A stretch of DNA of 46,589 nucleotides from Bacteriovoracaceae bacterium (GTDB lineage: Bacteria; Bdellovibrionota; Bacteriovoracia; Bacteriovoracales; Bacteriovoracaceae). The notes beneath the pieces were generated by a model, which was not told where the DNA came from, searched no databases, and worked only from the letters and a program-made list of their open reading frames with translations. The position numbers were made by a program, and so were the translations under genes. Position 1 is the first letter of the stretch. Each line of letters begins with the position of its first letter. The DNA is taken from NCBI GenBank assembly GCA_019752535.1, contig JAIEMA010000025.1, positions 1 through 46,589 of the forward strand, in the 5' to 3' direction. Positions 517-32,117 of the stretch are shown here, one piece after another.

Positions 517-3097
517 AGAACCTTGGGCGATGTCAGTAGATGAAGTCATTCGCTTACTAGATACAAATGCCGTTTCTGGACTTACTGAAGAGGATGTCTC
601 TGTAAGGTATACAACACATGGCCTGAATACATTAATGGCGCAGAAGAAGGTTTCCAGTTTTAAAAGAATGATTCAGCAATTTAAGAGTCCGGTGGTTATT
701 ATCCTTATCGTAGCTTCAATCGTTTCAGGTGCCTTAGGCGAAGTTACTGATGCCATGGCGATCCTCATCATCGTGATTATCAATGCGATTATAAGCTTCA
801 TTCAGGAGTCTAAGGCCGAAGCGGCCATTGAAGCTTTGAAAAACCTATCGTCCCCCAGAGCACGTGTCATGAGAGCAGGGCAGATCAAGGAGTGCGAAGC
901 TTCAGAGGTCACAATGGGTGATATTCTAATATTAGAATCAGGTGACTATGTTGCAGCAGATTCGCGATTAATTTTGGCCAATCAACTTTCCATAGATGAG
1001 TCTGTATTAACCGGGGAATCCCTTCCGGTTAATAAAACGCTTAAGACACTGGAGAAAAGTTCAGTACTAGCAGAAAGAAAAAACATGCTTTTTGCTAGTA
1101 CCGCTGTCGCCACTGGGTCTGCCAAGGCCATAGTCACATCAATCGGTATGCAAACTGAAATTGGAAAAATTGCGGGACTTTTAGAATCCGCTCAAATGAC
1201 TAAGACCCCCCTTCAATCCAAGCTGGAACTGGTGAGTAAGAAGCTTCTCTATCTCTGTTCAGGGGTTGTGATTTTGGTTGCGATTTTAGGAAAGATTCAC
1301 GGGGAAAAATGGGTTGATATTTTAATGAATGCAATCAGTCTGGCAGTTGCCGCTGTTCCTGAAGGATTGCCCGCAGTCGTGACAGTTGCATTGGCCTTGG
1401 CCGTAAGAAGGATGTCAAAAAAGAATGCCATTGTTAGACACCTCCCCGCAGTTGAGACTTTAGGCTCTACATCTGTGATTTGTACGGATAAGACTGGCAC
1501 TTTAACTACAGGAAAGATGCGGGTTAAAGACATTTATCCGTTTGAGGGAAAGGAAAGAGAGCTGATTGAGTCAGGCATGCTTTGTTCTAATGCTTCACTA
1601 TCCGAAAATGGACAAAGTACAGGTGATCCGACTGAAGTGGCACTTCTTTATCTCGCCAAAGATCATCAGGTTGAGTCTGTTTCGTTGACATCGAAATACC
1701 CTAGGCTCTTTGAGTGGAGCTTTGATAGCAACCGTAAACGCATGAGTGTGGCCGTTAAGGATGGGGAAGCTACACGGATACATTGCAAAGGAGCCCCTGA
1801 ATCTATTCTGGAAATTTGTAATTTAGGTGAAGAGCAAAAAAGTAAAATAAGAAGTCAGGTTCTTGAACTATCTTCAAAAGGCTACAGACTTTTGGGTGTT
1901 GGAGATAGAAGCATTACAGGGTTTAATGCGGAAGATTTTAAGGATTCAAACTTGGTTGAACGGGATCTGAACTTTCTGGGAATTATAGCGATTTCGGACC
2001 CGCCAAGGAGTGAGACTATCCCTGCTATTAAAACTTGTAAGGAGTCTGGGATAAAAATCGTAATGATCACAGGTGATCATCCGGTTACCGCAAAGGCCAT
2101 AGCCAAAGAGCTCGGGATTGTTGAGGAAGGAATATTTGACGGCGTTTTGACAGGTCCTGAACTTGATAAATTATCTTCAGACCAATTGGCAGAGTGTGTT
2201 GAGAAAATTGCTGTTTATGCTCGAGTTACTCCCGAGCATAAATTAAAAATAATAGAAGCATGGCAATCAAGAGGAAATGTTGTTGCCATGACAGGGGATG
2301 GAGTTAACGATGCTCCGGCCCTAAAAAAGGCATCCATCGGGGTTGCGATGGGAAAAGGGGGGACGGAAGTAGCCAAACAAGCATCCTCAATGATTTTAAC
2401 AGATGATAATTTTGCTACTATCGTTTCAGCAGTCGAAGAAGGACGGGCGATTTTCGGTAACATCCGCCGGACTATACAGTACCTTCTTTCTGGGAATCTT
2501 TCAGAGATTCTTATTATGTTGGGTGCCGCACTTATGGGCTGGCCAGCACCTTTAGCTGCAATACATCTATTGTGGATTAACTTAGTGACGGATGGTTTTC
2601 CCTCCCTGGCCTTAGCAGCTGAGCCGGTTCCTAAAGATGTTTTGAAAGGAAAGGCACCTTCGTCAAAAACATTCTTTGATAAATTATTTTATCGGGAAAT
2701 GATTTTGATTGGTTCAATTTCTGCTTTCATGGCACTGGCCCTATATGGCTATATGCTAAGAACTACTGATGAGTTAACTGCCAGGACCTACGTGTTCAGC
2801 TTTCTGGTATTCGTTGAATTATTTCGTTCTTTTGCCAGCAGGAGTGAAACAAGAACTTTCTTTGAAATGGGAGTAACATCAAACGTCTATCACTTGATCG
2901 CTGTGGCAATCCCCATTTCTTTCCAGATTTTCTTACACCATTCCGGCTATTTCCTTGAAGTCTTCAAGGTTACACATTTAGATTGGACGTCTTGTCTATT
3001 TATGATTGGGATTACTCTTGTTCCCGTTTCATTTTTAGAAATGAAAAAAATTTTCAAAAAAAAAGCAAACTTAAAACATGGGAAAGCATATGTCTGA
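503..3097 (+). CDS. P-type cation-transporting ATPase, Ca2+-ATPase-like (P2A type)
   Basis: An 864-residue inner-membrane ATPase expected to export Ca2+ or a similar cation. Visible landmarks in order are an N-terminal cation-ATPase domain, the actuator motif TGES, the M4 motif PEGLPA, the phosphorylation motif DKTGTLT with Asp329, the hinge TGDGVNDAPALK, and an M5-M6 region with SGNLSEI and NLVTDGFPS. The Asn/Glu of M5, the Asn/Thr/Asp of M6 and the Glu of PEGLP are the calcium ligands of SERCA-type pumps and are all present. Start is GTG at 503, overlapping the RND gene by 14 nt, and the 3' end overlaps the next gene by 20 nt, so the three are probably co-transcribed. Ion choice is inferred from ligands. 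Confidence 0.92.
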   Translation: MKEVKEPWAMSVDEVIRLLDTNAVSGLTEEDVSVRYTTHGLNTLMAQKKVSSFKRMIQQFKSPVVIILIVASIVSGALGEVTDAMAILIIVIINAIISFIQESKAEAAIEALKNLSSPRARVMRAGQIKECEASEVTMGDILILESGDYVAADSRLILANQLSIDESVLTGESLPVNKTLKTLEKSSVLAERKNMLFASTAVATGSAKAIVTSIGMQTEIGKIAGLLESAQMTKTPLQSKLELVSKKLLYLCSGVVILVAILGKIHGEKWVDILMNAISLAVAAVPEGLPAVVTVALALAVRRMSKKNAIVRHLPAVETLGSTSVICTDKTGTLTTGKMRVKDIYPFEGKERELIESGMLCSNASLSENGQSTGDPTEVALLYLAKDHQVESVSLTSKYPRLFEWSFDSNRKRMSVAVKDGEATRIHCKGAPESILEICNLGEEQKSKIRSQVLELSSKGYRLLGVGDRSITGFNAEDFKDSNLVERDLNFLGIIAISDPPRSETIPAIKTCKESGIKIVMITGDHPVTAKAIAKELGIVEEGIFDGVLTGPELDKLSSDQLAECVEKIAVYARVTPEHKLKIIEAWQSRGNVVAMTGDGVNDAPALKKASIGVAMGKGGTEVAKQASSMILTDDNFATIVSAVEEGRAIFGNIRRTIQYLLSGNLSEILIMLGAALMGWPAPLAAIHLLWINLVTDGFPSLALAAEPVPKDVLKGKAPSSKTFFDKLFYREMILIGSISAFMALALYGYMLRTTDELTARTYVFSFLVFVELFRSFASRSETRTFFEMGVTSNVYHLIAVAIPISFQIFLHHSGYFLEVFKVTHLDWTSCLFMIGITLVPVSFLEMKKIFKKKANLKHGKAYV

Positions 3098-27314: not shown

Positions 27315-28562
27315 TTGAGTGATATGCAAAATCTCAAGCCTTTAATCCGTAATTACAAATCTGACCCATTATCTGCCTACAATAACTGGTTTTTGGCAAG
27401 TGAGGATCGTCTAAAAGCTTTTCGAAGTATTCGTCGGGGAGTGCTGGAGGTCATCAAGGACATCAAAGATCATCGTTTTGGAAATGATTTCAAAGGCTCC
27501 TCTCTAGAGGTCGTTCTAACCGCAATTACCGAGCAAAAGGAAATTTTTGAAGGAGCTGCACATCCATTTTACTGGAAGCCGAAACTGAGAATTCCGGATA
27601 TTTATGAAAACGAAGGACACAAGAAATCTTTCGGGGCGTTTTTAGAAAAATGCTTGTTTGCTTCGTCGGAAAAGGAATTACTGGATGCCATAATTTCCCT
27701 TGATAAATTAGAAATTAAAGGACTTGGGCCATCCGTTGCCAACATTTTGTACTTTCTTCATCCCACTCTTATCCCTCCGTTTAATACGGCAATGCTAAAG
27801 GGGTTTAATGCCATTTTTGGTGAAAAGAAGAAACTAGGATCATGGAAAGATTTTCTTTATATCCGTGAAGTGATGATTGGGGCCAATAATGATCATAAAG
27901 CTGAGCTGTCGAATGATTTGGGAGCAATATCTGGTTTGCTGTTTGATATTGGTACAGGAATGTCTCTGGGAACATCAGAATTGAATCCTGAAGAAAAAAA
28001 TCGTTTTGAGAAAATCGTCAAGAAGCGCATGGAAGATCATGAAAACGAAGTCGATCAGGATAACCTGCACCAAGAGCTTCAGTATCATCTTCTTAAAATC
28101 GGTGCATCGCTTGGGTATGACGTGATGGTTGCTCAGAATGACCAGAAAAAATCATACAATGGAATGAATTTCTCTCAAATCTGTAATGGAGTCCTTCCAG
28201 ATCTTGGCCTTGATAAACAGACTGAGCAGACGATTAAGCTCATTGACGTGCTTTGGCTTGAACGTAAAACAAAGTTAATCAAAGCAGCATTTGAGGTTGA
28301 GAAAAGTACTAGTATATACTCTGGCATCCTACGGCTGATAGATTTGTCTGAGGCTTACCCATGTGATCAGCAGCTGTTCTACATCATAATTCCAGACAAA
28401 AGAGAAAAAGACGTCATAAATCAATTCAAAAGACCCTCTTTTAAATCAATTGAGGGCAAAGTTAAGTATATTCTCTCATCAACCCTTCAAAAAGAATGCG
28501 ATGCCATTTGTAAGTATGGATCAGGCCATCTTGTCTTGGAAAAAATTGCTAAGTTCGTATAA
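27315..28562 (+). CDS. Nuclease-like protein (HhH-like N-terminal region, PD-(D/E)xK-like C-terminal region)
   Basis: A 415-residue cytosolic protein. Residues 130-170 contain [24 protein letters not shown], resembling helix-hairpin-helix DNA-binding segments. Residues 308-345 contain IDVLWL followed by [17 protein letters not shown], which looks like the core strand pair of a PD-(D/E)xK nuclease (Asp311, then Glu327 and Glu329-Lys330), though the spacing is not a textbook D-ExK. No methyltransferase or other defence gene is adjacent, so a restriction role is not supported by context; repair is equally possible. The start is uncertain: TTG at 27315 or ATG at 27324, neither with a strong ribosome site. 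Confidence 0.6.
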
Positions 28563-29090
28563 CTAATTCCATGAGAAATTAGTACTTTTAACCTTTAGTG
28601 CAATTTTGCAAAACAGGATAGAGGTTGAAGCCGCTGAGATGAACCAAGAGACATAGTAATAGGTTGATGAATAATGAGGATCAGCGGAGTTGCCACTTAA
28701 GAACATTAATCCCCACATTGTAAGCGCAGCGAATGGTAGAAACAAGCGAAGTCGGTATCTATGAATCCACCAAACCTCATCTCGTCTTAAAACAACGGAG
28801 GTTGCAAGTGATCCTCCTGCAAAAAAGACTGCCCCACAATAGGCCCCACAGACTGTAGGGCCAAGCTCCATAATGAAATGGGAAAATGACTGATGATCAC
28901 TGCTGAGTGAAATACCAAATTGCGGACATAAGAACAGAGTGATCAATAAACCAACGACCATGGAGATGAAAAATTTAATGAGAGTCACCTTGGGATTTAT
29001 GGCAGTCGTTATTAGTTCTCTGGTTGACATGTCAAGTTGAGGTGGGACTTCTTCTTCATTACTAATGAAGTCAAATAAATCATCATTCAT
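28563..29090 (-). CDS. Membrane protein beside an ECF sigma gene, probable anti-sigma factor (paralogue 1)
   Basis: A 175-residue protein with a short cytosolic N-terminus (DLFDFISNEEEVPPQ) and about four to five transmembrane helices. It shares with the proteins at 29618-30182 and 30331-30873 the block TL--CPQFGIS, then H-x-F, and V-C---CG--F. This set of conserved Cys and His residues in or near the membrane could sense metal or redox state. Its start overlaps the ECF sigma stop by 4 nt, the usual arrangement of sigma and anti-sigma. I infer that the N-terminus binds the sigma factor, similar in layout to NrsF (DUF1109) proteins. No direct evidence of function. Confidence 0.7.
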   Translation of the reverse strand: MNDDLFDFISNEEEVPPQLDMSTRELITTAINPKVTLIKFFISMVVGLLITLFLCPQFGISLSSDHQSFSHFIMELGPTVCGAYCGAVFFAGGSLATSVVLRRDEVWWIHRYRLRLFLPFAALTMWGLMFLSGNSADPHYSSTYYYVSWFISAASTSILFCKIALKVKSTNFSWN

Positions 29091-29590
29091 TTTTTAACTC
29101 CTTTTAACATTGAGATTGCCCTGCTTAATCGTTTTCGCAAGGACGCCTCAGTAACAGAGTGTCTTTCTGACAACTCTTTAGAACTTAAACCTTCGTAAAA
29201 ATATTCTTTAAGCAATTTTGCTTTTTCATTTGGTAGGGTACTGAGCATATCATCGATATTAAATTCAGGTTCATTTTCTTGGTGGCCAGACAGGCGAAGC
29301 TTTTCATTTAGTTTAATGCTGATATTATTTTTCCTGTAATCATCGATGACAATATTACGTAATATGACATACAGCCATAGTTGAAAAGGCTGTCCATTCC
29401 ACGCAGACTTATTTTCAATGATTTTAATGAAACAATCCTGGAATAGGTCTTCAGCGATCGGTCTTGAATTTCTTCTTATAAGATAGGCGTAAACTTTTTT
29501 GGAATGCCGATTATACAGCTCGAGTATGGCCTGCCCCTCATCTCCATTTTTTAGAAGAGTCATTAACTCTTCATCTGTCTTCTCTTTCAT
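29087..29590 (-). CDS. ECF RNA polymerase sigma factor 1
   Basis: A 167-residue sigma-70-family ECF factor. Region 2 reads YNRHSKKVYAYLIRRNSRPIAEDLFQDCFIKI and continues with PFQLWLYVILRNIVIDDYR; region 4 reads LLKEYFYEGLSSKELSERHSVTEASLRKRLSRAISML. It directs polymerase to a small regulon, probably the TGTCACA-N15-ACGTTA promoters in this window. It lies between two membrane anti-sigma-like genes, 27 nt after the frameshifted one and overlapping the intact one by 4 nt. The ECF-type motif at 30189-30217 precedes the operon, suggesting autoregulation. Confidence 0.92.
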   Translation of the reverse strand: MKEKTDEELMTLLKNGDEGQAILELYNRHSKKVYAYLIRRNSRPIAEDLFQDCFIKIIENKSAWNGQPFQLWLYVILRNIVIDDYRKNNISIKLNEKLRLSGHQENEPEFNIDDMLSTLPNEKAKLLKEYFYEGLSSKELSERHSVTEASLRKRLSRAISMLKGVKK

Positions 29591-29617
29591 TAATCTCGTT
29601 TCCCTTAAACATTAAAG

Positions 29618-30182
29618 TCATGCATATCGAAGAATGTTTATTTTTATCTTTGAACTAATTTCGAATAATAGTGATCCTCCAGCAAACGCGCCAAATACCC
29701 AGTTTAATATTTCCTGAGTTGGAGGAAGGTTGGGAGATTTTAAGATCAAGAATACTGATAAGGAGAAAAAGCAAAGCAGGAAGGTGATCAGAGATTTGTA
29801 CTCGTTAAATTTATGAATTTCTTCGCGTGATAAAATGGATGCACTAATGGATAAAGTCGTACCAAGAAAAAATACACCGCATAGAATCGTACAAACTTCA
29901 TGGCCAAAGATCATGAAATAGCGGGTTATACCAATCTCTTCTCCGAATATTGAAATGCCGAATTGCGGGCATATGACTAACGTTAAAGAGCCCACAACCA
30001 AATGAACAATTAATATCTTTAATAAAATGTGTGAGAGCCTGGGATTCAGCAACTCCTTTATTTTCAATAAGATTTTCTGGGTGAGTCTTTCTGGAGGGGG
30101 GGGATCCACAGGTTAGGATAAAATCTAAATAATCAGCTTGTGCTGACTCTTTACTATCTATAATTTCTTTTTTTGGTCTCAT
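29618..30182 (-). pseudogene. Frameshifted membrane anti-sigma-like protein (paralogue 2), possibly phase-variable
   Basis: Reading from ATG 30182, the first 30 or so codons (ADYLDFILTCGSPP) match the N-termini of the two intact paralogues. In a run of eight C (G8 on the plus strand, 30096-30103) the frame is lost. The rest of the family sequence (ERLTQKILLKIKELL, then CPQFGISIFG, VCTILCG) continues in another frame to 29618. Seven C would restore one 187-residue protein reading SPPPERL. This may be a slippage switch, a recent mutation or a sequencing error. No start codon lies between 30182 and the tract in the N-terminal frame. The promoter motif ends only 6 nt before the ATG, so the mRNA may be leaderless. 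Confidence 0.7.
30096..30103. repeat. G8 homopolymer at the frameshift
   Basis: Eight consecutive G on the plus strand (C8 in the coding sense) coincide with the point where the two halves of paralogue 2 change frame. Loss of one base restores the frame. Long G/C runs are typical slipped-strand sites. Confidence 0.85.
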
Positions 30183-30188
30183 GCCTAT

Positions 30189-30217
30189 ATAACGCTTGGC
30201 ATGTGTGAAATGTGACT
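30189..30217 (-). promoter_or_regulatory. ECF-type promoter motif, site 4 (sigma/anti-sigma operon)
   Basis: On the minus strand: AGTCACA (30217-30211), 15 nt, GCGTTAT (30195-30189). It differs from the consensus at the first base of each box. It precedes the operon of paralogue 2, ECF sigma 1 and paralogue 1, so the sigma factor may activate its own gene. With a typical start 6-8 nt below the box, transcription would begin at or next to the ATG at 30182. Confidence 0.65.
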
Positions 30218-30330
30218 TTGCCTATTAAAATTTCAAAATGATGAGATCTATAAGTGCATGTTGAAGGTGGTTTCATTAAGAAACTTTGTAAGAATTACAT
30301 ATTTTTGAAAATGGGGAGCCTGCCTATTTT

Positions 30331-30873
30331 TTACCCATTACGAATATCTCTTACTAGTTTTAATTGATAAGTCTTGCTTCTAAGTGTTAGCCAAAAGGCT
30401 TGTGATAATAAAGCAGATAGTATCCATGCTAGGTGATACAAAACTGATTCACCTTCAAGATTCAGGGATAAGTTTGTAAGCATTAAAATGAACCACAAGG
30501 CCGGAGGAAAAAGTACAAGGGAATATTTGTAGTGTCTCCATACCCACCATAACTCATCTCCTTTCATGCCAATGTAAGCAACCAACATCCCTGAGGATAG
30601 AAATAGTGACCCACAAAATGAGGCGCAGACCCAGTCTCCAAAAAGTCTAAAAAAATGCGTGATACCATGCCCATCTACTAGTCCTATCCCAAATTGTGGA
30701 CAAAAGGATAAAGTAAAAGCTGCTCCTAACATCTGAAACAAAATAAATTTTGTAAGGATGGCTTTTTTATGAAATGAGAGCAAAATATCTTTTTGGACAG
30801 ATAGGCTCAAACTTTTTGGTGGGATTTCACTCTGAGTGATAAATTCTAAAAAATCATTTTTATCATCTTTCAT
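30331..30873 (-). CDS. Membrane protein beside an ECF sigma gene, probable anti-sigma factor (paralogue 3)
   Basis: A 180-residue intact member of the same family as paralogues 1 and 2: cytosolic N-terminus NDFLEFITQSEIPPKS, then FTLSFCPQFGIGLVDGHGITHFF, then WVCASFCGSLFL and further transmembrane helices. It starts 1 nt after the stop of ECF sigma 2, so the two are translationally linked. The conserved Cys of CPQFGI and the paired Cys of the next helix again suggest a metal- or redox-responsive sensor. Function is inferred from position and paralogy. Confidence 0.7.
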   Translation of the reverse strand: MKDDKNDFLEFITQSEIPPKSLSLSVQKDILLSFHKKAILTKFILFQMLGAAFTLSFCPQFGIGLVDGHGITHFFRLFGDWVCASFCGSLFLSSGMLVAYIGMKGDELWWVWRHYKYSLVLFPPALWFILMLTNLSLNLEGESVLYHLAWILSALLSQAFWLTLRSKTYQLKLVRDIRNG

Positions 30874-30874
30874 G

Positions 30875-31375
30875 TTAAACCTCGAATTTGTCTTTCAATC
30901 CTTGCAAGGCTCTTGATAAACGTTTACGCAAGCTGTTTTGTGACATTCCGGTCTGTATTTCTAAATCTTCGTAGCTAAACCCTTCTAAATAGTACTTGCG
31001 AACCAGGATAGCGGTTTCGTCGGGTAATTTGTTAAGGATTTCGTTAATCTCCTCGATGCATTGAGTATCTTCATTAATCTCTGAAGGAAGAGAATGCTCA
31101 AGGAGTTTCTTTTTTCTGCTGGAACTTCTGTATTCATCCACTAAAAGATTTTTTATTAACACAAACAACCATGGGGCAAACGGCTGATTCTGGTAACAAT
31201 CGCGTTTTTCGTGTAAATGTCTCCAAACGGACTGATAGAAGTCCTCCGTCTCTGATGGGTGAAGGCGCTTTCTAATATAGCCATATACCATTGGCGAATA
31301 TTTATCATAGAGTTTATTGAATGCCCCTTCGTTGCCGGCCTTATAGGCATTCATTAATTGTTCATCTGAAATCAT
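30875..31375 (-). CDS. ECF RNA polymerase sigma factor 2
   Basis: A 166-residue ECF sigma factor with region 2 (YDKYSPMVYGYIRKRLHPSETEDFYQSVW, PFAPWLFVLIKNLLVDEYR) and region 4 (LVRKYYLEGFSYEDLEIQTGMSQNSLRKRLSRALQGL). It is clearly paralogous to sigma 1. Its own upstream region shares the 31376-31460 gap with the divergent ECF-type promoter at 31424-31452 but shows no such motif on its own strand. It may therefore be expressed constitutively and act as the entry point of the regulon. No good ribosome site precedes the ATG at 31375. Confidence 0.92.
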   Translation of the reverse strand: MISDEQLMNAYKAGNEGAFNKLYDKYSPMVYGYIRKRLHPSETEDFYQSVWRHLHEKRDCYQNQPFAPWLFVLIKNLLVDEYRSSSRKKKLLEHSLPSEINEDTQCIEEINEILNKLPDETAILVRKYYLEGFSYEDLEIQTGMSQNSLRKRLSRALQGLKDKFEV

Positions 31376-31423: not shown

Positions 31424-31452
31424 TGTCACAAATGACCTTGGAATTACGTTAT
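31424..31452 (+). promoter_or_regulatory. ECF-type promoter motif, site 5
   Basis: TGTCACA (31424-31430), 15 nt, ACGTTAT (31446-31452). The first 13 bases (TGTCACAAATGAC) are identical to site 1. It drives the gene starting at 31479 and lies opposite the ECF sigma 2 gene. Confidence 0.75.
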
Positions 31453-31478
31453 AGATTATAATGTCAAAAAGAGGGTGT

Positions 31479-32117
31479 ATGTTGATCAAAGTGGTCTGTT
31501 TGTTAGCATTAATTTTTTCACTTCCTTCGTTCTCTCATCCGGTTATCTATAAAGAGGGGACTGTTGTGAGTTCCTCAAATATGAAGTCTTATAGTGACAA
31601 TCAATTGATGTACTCTTGGTCTAATAGGTGGGCTTCAGGTCTTAACCACTGGCGCTTCACTAAGGATGAAAGTAACACTGATCTAGCTTTCTTAAAAACC
31701 AATTATCTGCTTTACCGGTACAACGGAGAATTTTCACAGGGAAATATCTATGTCCATGGCGGATTCGGGGTCGCAGATTCTGAAATCGAAAAACGGCAGA
31801 CTAATGAAGCCTATATGACTGGCGTAGAGATGGACTGGGAGACCAGGACCCTTTATACATCCTGGAAATATTATTATTTTACATCACCAAAAGTCACCGA
31901 CATCTCCATGACTCAGGCAAGAATAGGATTTTCACCCTATGAAGCTGGTTTTGACCAACTTCAGTCTTGGTTCATGGTCCAGGTGATGTATATGCCTGAT
32001 GTAGAAAAAGAGGCCATCATCACCCCTTTGCTTAGATTCTTCTATAAGAATGTCCTCTGGGAGATTGGGTCAAGCACCAGAGCAGAATGGATGCTCAATA
32101 TCATGGTTCATTACTAG
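31479..32117 (+). CDS. Secreted protein of unknown function, probably outer-membrane associated
   Basis: A 212-residue protein with signal peptide (LALIFSLPSFSH) and a mature part rich in Tyr, Trp and alternating residues (YSWSNRWASGLNHWRF, LYTSWKYYYF, WFMVQVMYMPD), as in beta-barrel or beta-sandwich envelope proteins. I know no named family. ATG at 31479 is preferred over 31461 because AGAGGG precedes it and because the promoter motif ends only 8 nt before 31461. It is followed by an independent promoter for the MerP-like gene, and shared regulation suggests a metal-stress role. Confidence 0.65.
   Translation: MLIKVVCLLALIFSLPSFSHPVIYKEGTVVSSSNMKSYSDNQLMYSWSNRWASGLNHWRFTKDESNTDLAFLKTNYLLYRYNGEFSQGNIYVHGGFGVADSEIEKRQTNEAYMTGVEMDWETRTLYTSWKYYYFTSPKVTDISMTQARIGFSPYEAGFDQLQSWFMVQVMYMPDVEKEAIITPLLRFFYKNVLWEIGSSTRAEWMLNIMVHY

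Follow-up and report, generated by a model that had tools for sequence, protein, structure and literature searches.

NrsF, the anti-sigma factor of Caulobacter SigF, is a multi-transmembrane (TM) protein with conserved cysteines that is encoded after its ECF sigma gene, and the SigF-NrsF pair governs a metal-stress regulon from promoters of the form GTAACC-N16-CGAA (PMC3511200). In Pseudomonas aeruginosa, the anti-sigma gene mucA undergoes single-base slips in a run of five G; in mucA22 one such slip in the G:C run, which is absent from related species, breaks the gene (PMC2781719). Simple-sequence contingency loci carry a homopolymer, often poly-G/C, within a reading frame, such that changes in its length toggle the frame. 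Here we compare with these systems a locus in which an anti-sigma-like gene is interrupted at a homopolymer.

The window, by which we mean the whole 46,589-nt stretch of DNA that was analysed, is part of a contig (C30) of a 3.49 Mb draft genome in 76 contigs that is 97.5% complete. The named records closest to this genome are Bdellovibrionota MAGs, for example Bacteriovoracaceae bacterium UBA7695, and a search of a plasmid collection returned no match. On the minus strand the genes follow one another in the order sigA, anti3, anti2 (broken), sigB and anti1:

31425..31451, plus strand: promoter motif of the same type as that of anti2, ahead of a divergent gene (31461-32117)
30875..31375, minus strand: sigA, ECF sigma factor (Pfam Sigma70_r2, 1e-10; Sigma70_r4_2, 1.4e-09)
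30331..30873, minus strand: anti3, intact anti-sigma-like partner of sigA
30190..30216, minus strand: ECF-type promoter motif GTCACA-N16-CGTTA ahead of anti2
29618..30182, minus strand: anti2, frameshifted anti-sigma-like gene, from ATG 30182 to the stop at 29618 (from ORFs, alignment and an N-terminal HMM)
29898..30182, minus strand: upstream ORF of anti2, 94 aa, of which the first 29 residues are the family N-terminus and the remainder is out of frame
30096..30103, minus strand: C8 tract on the coding strand (G8 on the plus strand), the site of the frame break in the sequence
29618..30109, minus strand: downstream ORF of anti2 from GTG 30109, 163 aa, a predicted complete 4-TM module
29087..29590, minus strand: sigB, ECF sigma factor directly downstream of anti2 (Pfam Sigma70_r2, 4.1e-11; Sigma70_r4_2, 2e-08)
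28563..29090, minus strand: anti1, intact anti-sigma-like partner of sigB, which it overlaps by 4 nt

Both sigA and sigB have the make-up of ECF sigma factors, with sigma-70 regions 2 and 4 only, a length of about 170 aa, and matches to Sigma70_r2 and Sigma70_r4_2 above cut-off. Only 27 nt separate anti2 from sigB, in agreement with the initial annotation, which had placed the broken gene at the head of an operon with an ECF sigma factor.

A single long-form anti2 gene really is split in the assembly. The upstream and downstream frames are offset by one base at 30096-30103, the sole G/C run longer than 6 in the window, and a 7-base tract would therefore yield a single frame of 187 residues; that the gene is broken exactly at the G8, and that removing one base restores a 187-residue protein, had both been correctly read beforehand. 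On the coding strand the upstream frame runs ATG AGA CCA ... TGT GGA TCC CCC CCC TCC, and past the tract the family body resumes in the frame that begins one base later. Ahead of the tract, the peptide MRPKKEIIDSKESAQADYLDFILTCGSPP scored 8.6 bits against an HMM built from 69 N-termini of the family, a score equalled or bettered by 1 of 5000 shuffles, and anti2 is therefore a frameshifted long form. Its body aligns with the neighbouring anti genes (CPQFGI and C..CG), keeps 19 of the 21 family-conserved residues, which is the family median, and is otherwise free of stops and breaks; either the event is thus recent or the body is still under selection. The frame break separates helix 1 from helix 2. 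Judging by a model of the intact copy anti3 (pLDDT 91.6), in which these helices comprise residues 4-13 and 20-34, the break is predicted to remove helix 1 only. A compensating slip in the A7 run at 30168 was ruled out, as one A fewer leads to an immediate TAG.

The products of anti1, anti2 and anti3 are members of a single family, about 155-190 residues long and marked by a CPQFG motif and a C...CG pair. Neither Pfam nor NCBIfam holds a model that matches them, no match to the Pfam model NrsF / DUF1109 was obtained for any of 38 family members with E allowed up to 1, and comparison with the PDB using Foldseek and VIA-align gave nothing significant (best Z 4.9, to a heme exporter, which is within the range of common helical arrangements). 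The family was found in 66 of the 115 family-level genomes searched and in 162 of 291 across the phylum, usually as a single copy right behind an ECF sigma gene; among the matches listed, only two contain in-frame stops (G113 and G289). Pairs of an ECF sigma factor and a 4-TM CPQFG protein (loci L049-L173 in relatives; 28563-31375 in the window) are widespread in Bdellovibrionota and also occur in Desulfobulbaceae MAGs. A sigma gene lies directly upstream in nearly all sampled loci, and the anti3 model has four TM segments with N-terminal helices on what is probably the cytoplasmic side. The association with sigma genes, the membrane topology and the cysteine conservation, as in Caulobacter SigF-NrsF, make an anti-sigma function likely for the family, whose members would bind sigma.

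Within this family anti2 is unusual. This genome carries six copies (three in the window, two on contig C24 and one on contig C26), and anti2 has no sigma gene directly upstream, while nearly all of the 85 sampled family genes have one; the sample contains just one further internal orphan, L132, and it sits behind an apparent sigma remnant. Both halves of anti2 had been said to align with the intact paralogues, and homology does hold for both, but anti2 is no close paralogue of the other two: it sits on a different old branch, the main branch of the family tree that does not contain anti1 and anti3, and a recent duplication of either of these is rejected (p-AU 1.8e-5). No other end branch of the tree is as long as that of anti2 (1.83; median 0.46), a length consistent with relaxed constraint. 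The related cluster on C24 has, ahead of its sigB-type sigma gene, a gene for a haem-binding protein and not an anti gene. Together with the missing upstream sigma gene, this makes anti2 look like a regulon target added ahead of sigB-anti1. On contig C199 of genome G129 (L176, ~2171-2803, reverse strand), an orphan anti gene stands behind an apparent sigma region 4 remnant, and that locus looks like a second sigma/anti pair in decay.

The motif ahead of anti2 recurs through the genome. GTCACA-N15-17-CGTTA was found 17 times, against 6 for the reversed control, with six sites in the window and six on C24. The genes behind these sites encode, among others, a multicopper oxidase-like protein, a DUF411 protein, a haem-binding protein, an outer membrane efflux protein, and a Cys-rich peptide followed by an MNIO enzyme of the bufferin/oxazolin type; their identity suggests a copper regulon. 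In relatives, GTCACA-N15-17-CGT[ACT] lies upstream of 50 of 79 family sigma genes (shuffled mean 0.14, maximum 2), which points to autoregulation, and the anti2 promoter is probably driven by sigA or sigB. The genome displays two related copper-type clusters, on C30 (window 17622-39998) and C24 (L078, L108-L113), with six motif sites each and their own ECF-anti pairs; in both, a conserved protein of ~410 aa without a Pfam match adjoins the sigma-anti genes (window 27315-28562; L112 1539-2753). On contig C35 (L120, 347-1448) the motif precedes the gene for the Cys-rich peptide, of 95 aa, then that for the MNIO enzyme (PF05114, E 2.4e-88) and a probable partner gene, beside a divergent sigma-like gene with a weak match; this locus looks like a bufferin/oxazolin-type copper RiPP cluster.

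The promoter motif of anti2 had been placed 6 nt before the ATG. The motif itself is real, and its CGTTA ends 7 nt before the start codon. With the motif so close, an anti2 mRNA that is leaderless or nearly so is plausible, and the spacing is compatible with one. Most other credible regulon genes here start at least 16 nt from the motif, often with a purine-rich, Shine-Dalgarno-like stretch in between; at one site, on contig C37, the start is 4 nt away, in a gene that is a doubtful member of the regulon. In relatives, several sigma genes start 3-9 nt from the motif, by mechanically assigned starts.

We consider it most probable, with a probability of roughly 0.47, that anti2 is a redundant orphan anti-sigma-like copy disrupted by a recent one-base slip, amounting to a fixed loss or truncation and not to a switch. 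As an extra orphan 4-TM member of the family at the head of an ECF-controlled operon (motif, anti2, sigB, anti1), it would have served as a negative-feedback output of the ECF regulon. A recent slip from 7 to 8 C in a chance tract may then have uncoupled the reading frame of the N-terminal cytoplasmic helix from that of the body, leaving full-length protein absent or at trace level. The loss would be tolerated because sigB keeps its own intact partner, anti1, just as sigA keeps anti3. Both the recency of the event and its character as a fixed loss, as opposed to a regulated switch, are what we infer from these features. Against slip and loss stand the conserved residues of the body, which are all kept, unlike those of a long-dead gene, and the 163-residue ORF, which is possibly still translated. 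Moreover, the evidence comes from a single assembly, in which an error would give an identical picture.

That the true tract is C7 and anti2 is intact, the eighth base being an error of assembly or sequencing, is the first alternative to weigh, and we judge it unlikely. Homopolymers are the usual site of such errors, the genome is a draft of 76 contigs at 97.5% completeness, and the anti2 body appears fully constrained. In the same assembly, however, 21 of 30 other G/C tracts of at least 7 lie inside long open ORFs, and no obviously broken gene turned up among the 30 (13 further tracts of 7 were left out of this control); about 29 A/T runs of at least 7 in the window lie inside long ORFs as well. 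The assembly is therefore generally right at homopolymers; this control argues against a generally error-prone assembly, and a single error at anti2 is possible.

A further alternative, which we regard as rather improbable, is that anti2 still works as a 163-residue short form, initiated at GTG 30109 and reading across the tract, that lacks only helix 1. The initial annotation had recognised no start other than the ATG ahead of the tract, yet GTG 30109 lies there too, in frame with the body. Short forms of 154-162 aa occur naturally in this genus and on another contig of the genome, C26 (L079, L087-L090), the entire genus g14 group is ~156 aa long, and a grouping of anti2 with the g14 short forms was not rejected (p-AU 0.465). 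AlphaFold2 models the 163-residue ORF as a complete 4-TM module (pLDDT 94), and the conserved residues are retained. Nevertheless, no Shine-Dalgarno sequence was seen before GTG 30109. Two codons upstream of this GTG there is a stop in its frame, and the upstream ORF terminates elsewhere, which leaves no stop-start coupling of the kind found in the sigma-anti pairs. The peptide before the tract, too, still resembles the long-form N-terminus, at odds with a gene that begins at the GTG.

The phase-variable switch that was originally proposed fares worse. Reversible slippage of the C tract would, in a subpopulation, switch anti2 on at C7 and off at C8, and, the switch being located in an extra anti-sigma gene that is itself an ECF regulon target, cells would split into braked and unbraked states of metal stress; we find the slippage doubtful, and equally doubtful the division of cells that would follow. 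Speaking for it, an 8-base tract sits in the reading frame early in a regulatory gene, a single base away from an open frame whose body is otherwise intact, and the slips in the G5 run of mucA are a precedent for such hits to an anti-sigma gene (PMC2781719). The tract, however, is not conserved: among the 85 sampled family genes no other G/C run reaches 8, the next in length being one of 7, in a doubtful ORF, and the longest credible ones being of 6, and this comparison of relatives at the tract thus went against a switch. A DNA search of the same genus and family returned no orthologous tract and no close ortholog for a strain-level comparison. Nor are G/C tracts of at least 8 enriched genome-wide; in fetched stretches of the genome, 16 were observed against 16-37 expected from composition, and of the 15 others, 11 are within apparently intact ORFs and four between genes. 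The genes for MutS and MutL are open and above cut-off, arguing against a mutator background, and anti1 would still restrain sigB whatever the state of anti2. A frameshift in a homopolymer is what ordinary slippage or sequencing error is expected to produce. Phase switching is mechanically possible, is not supported beyond that, and is the least supported of the main four readings. A true switch would be an example of a sigma-factor brake under phase variation, in a phylum of bacteria with many predators.

It is very improbable that +1 ribosomal frameshifting on CCC-CCC-U yields a little full-length protein from the C8 allele. The upstream frame reads TCC CCC CCC TCC, a +1 shift would enter the body frame, and CC[C/U]-[C/U] is prone to such shifts (CCC-C right after a start codon, ~1% in E. 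coli; PMC4519876). Against this reading, non-programmed frequencies are typically <0.003% and higher rates adjoin the start codon (PMC4519876), while the anti2 tract is 26 codons in, is absent from all sampled relatives and has no known stimulatory element.

As a plain frameshift the break in anti2 matters little, but it leads to a widespread family of ECF sigma factors and 4-TM anti-sigma-like proteins without a Pfam or NCBIfam model, and we regard this sigma/anti-sigma family as a more interesting by-product than the frameshift itself. With simple-sequence contingency loci anti2 shares an 8-base poly-C tract and a frame that is off by one, and it differs from them in the absence of both conservation of the tract and enrichment of such tracts in the genome. 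The likeness to mucA lies in a one-base slip in a G:C run, missing from related species, that breaks an anti-sigma gene. The mucA change is a -1 event in the part encoding the periplasmic portion and is selected in infection, whereas the apparent change in anti2 is +1 and near the N-terminus; mucA is accompanied by its cognate sigma gene, and anti2 is an orphan copy. MucA is a single-pass anti-sigma factor unrelated to the anti2 family. NrsF, which is covered by a Pfam model, has six TM segments against four in the family described here. The family nevertheless resembles NrsF in being multi-TM, in its position after an ECF sigma gene and in its conserved cysteines, and the promoter motif GTCACA-N16-CGT[A/T], though different in sequence from that of the SigF regulon, has the same layout.
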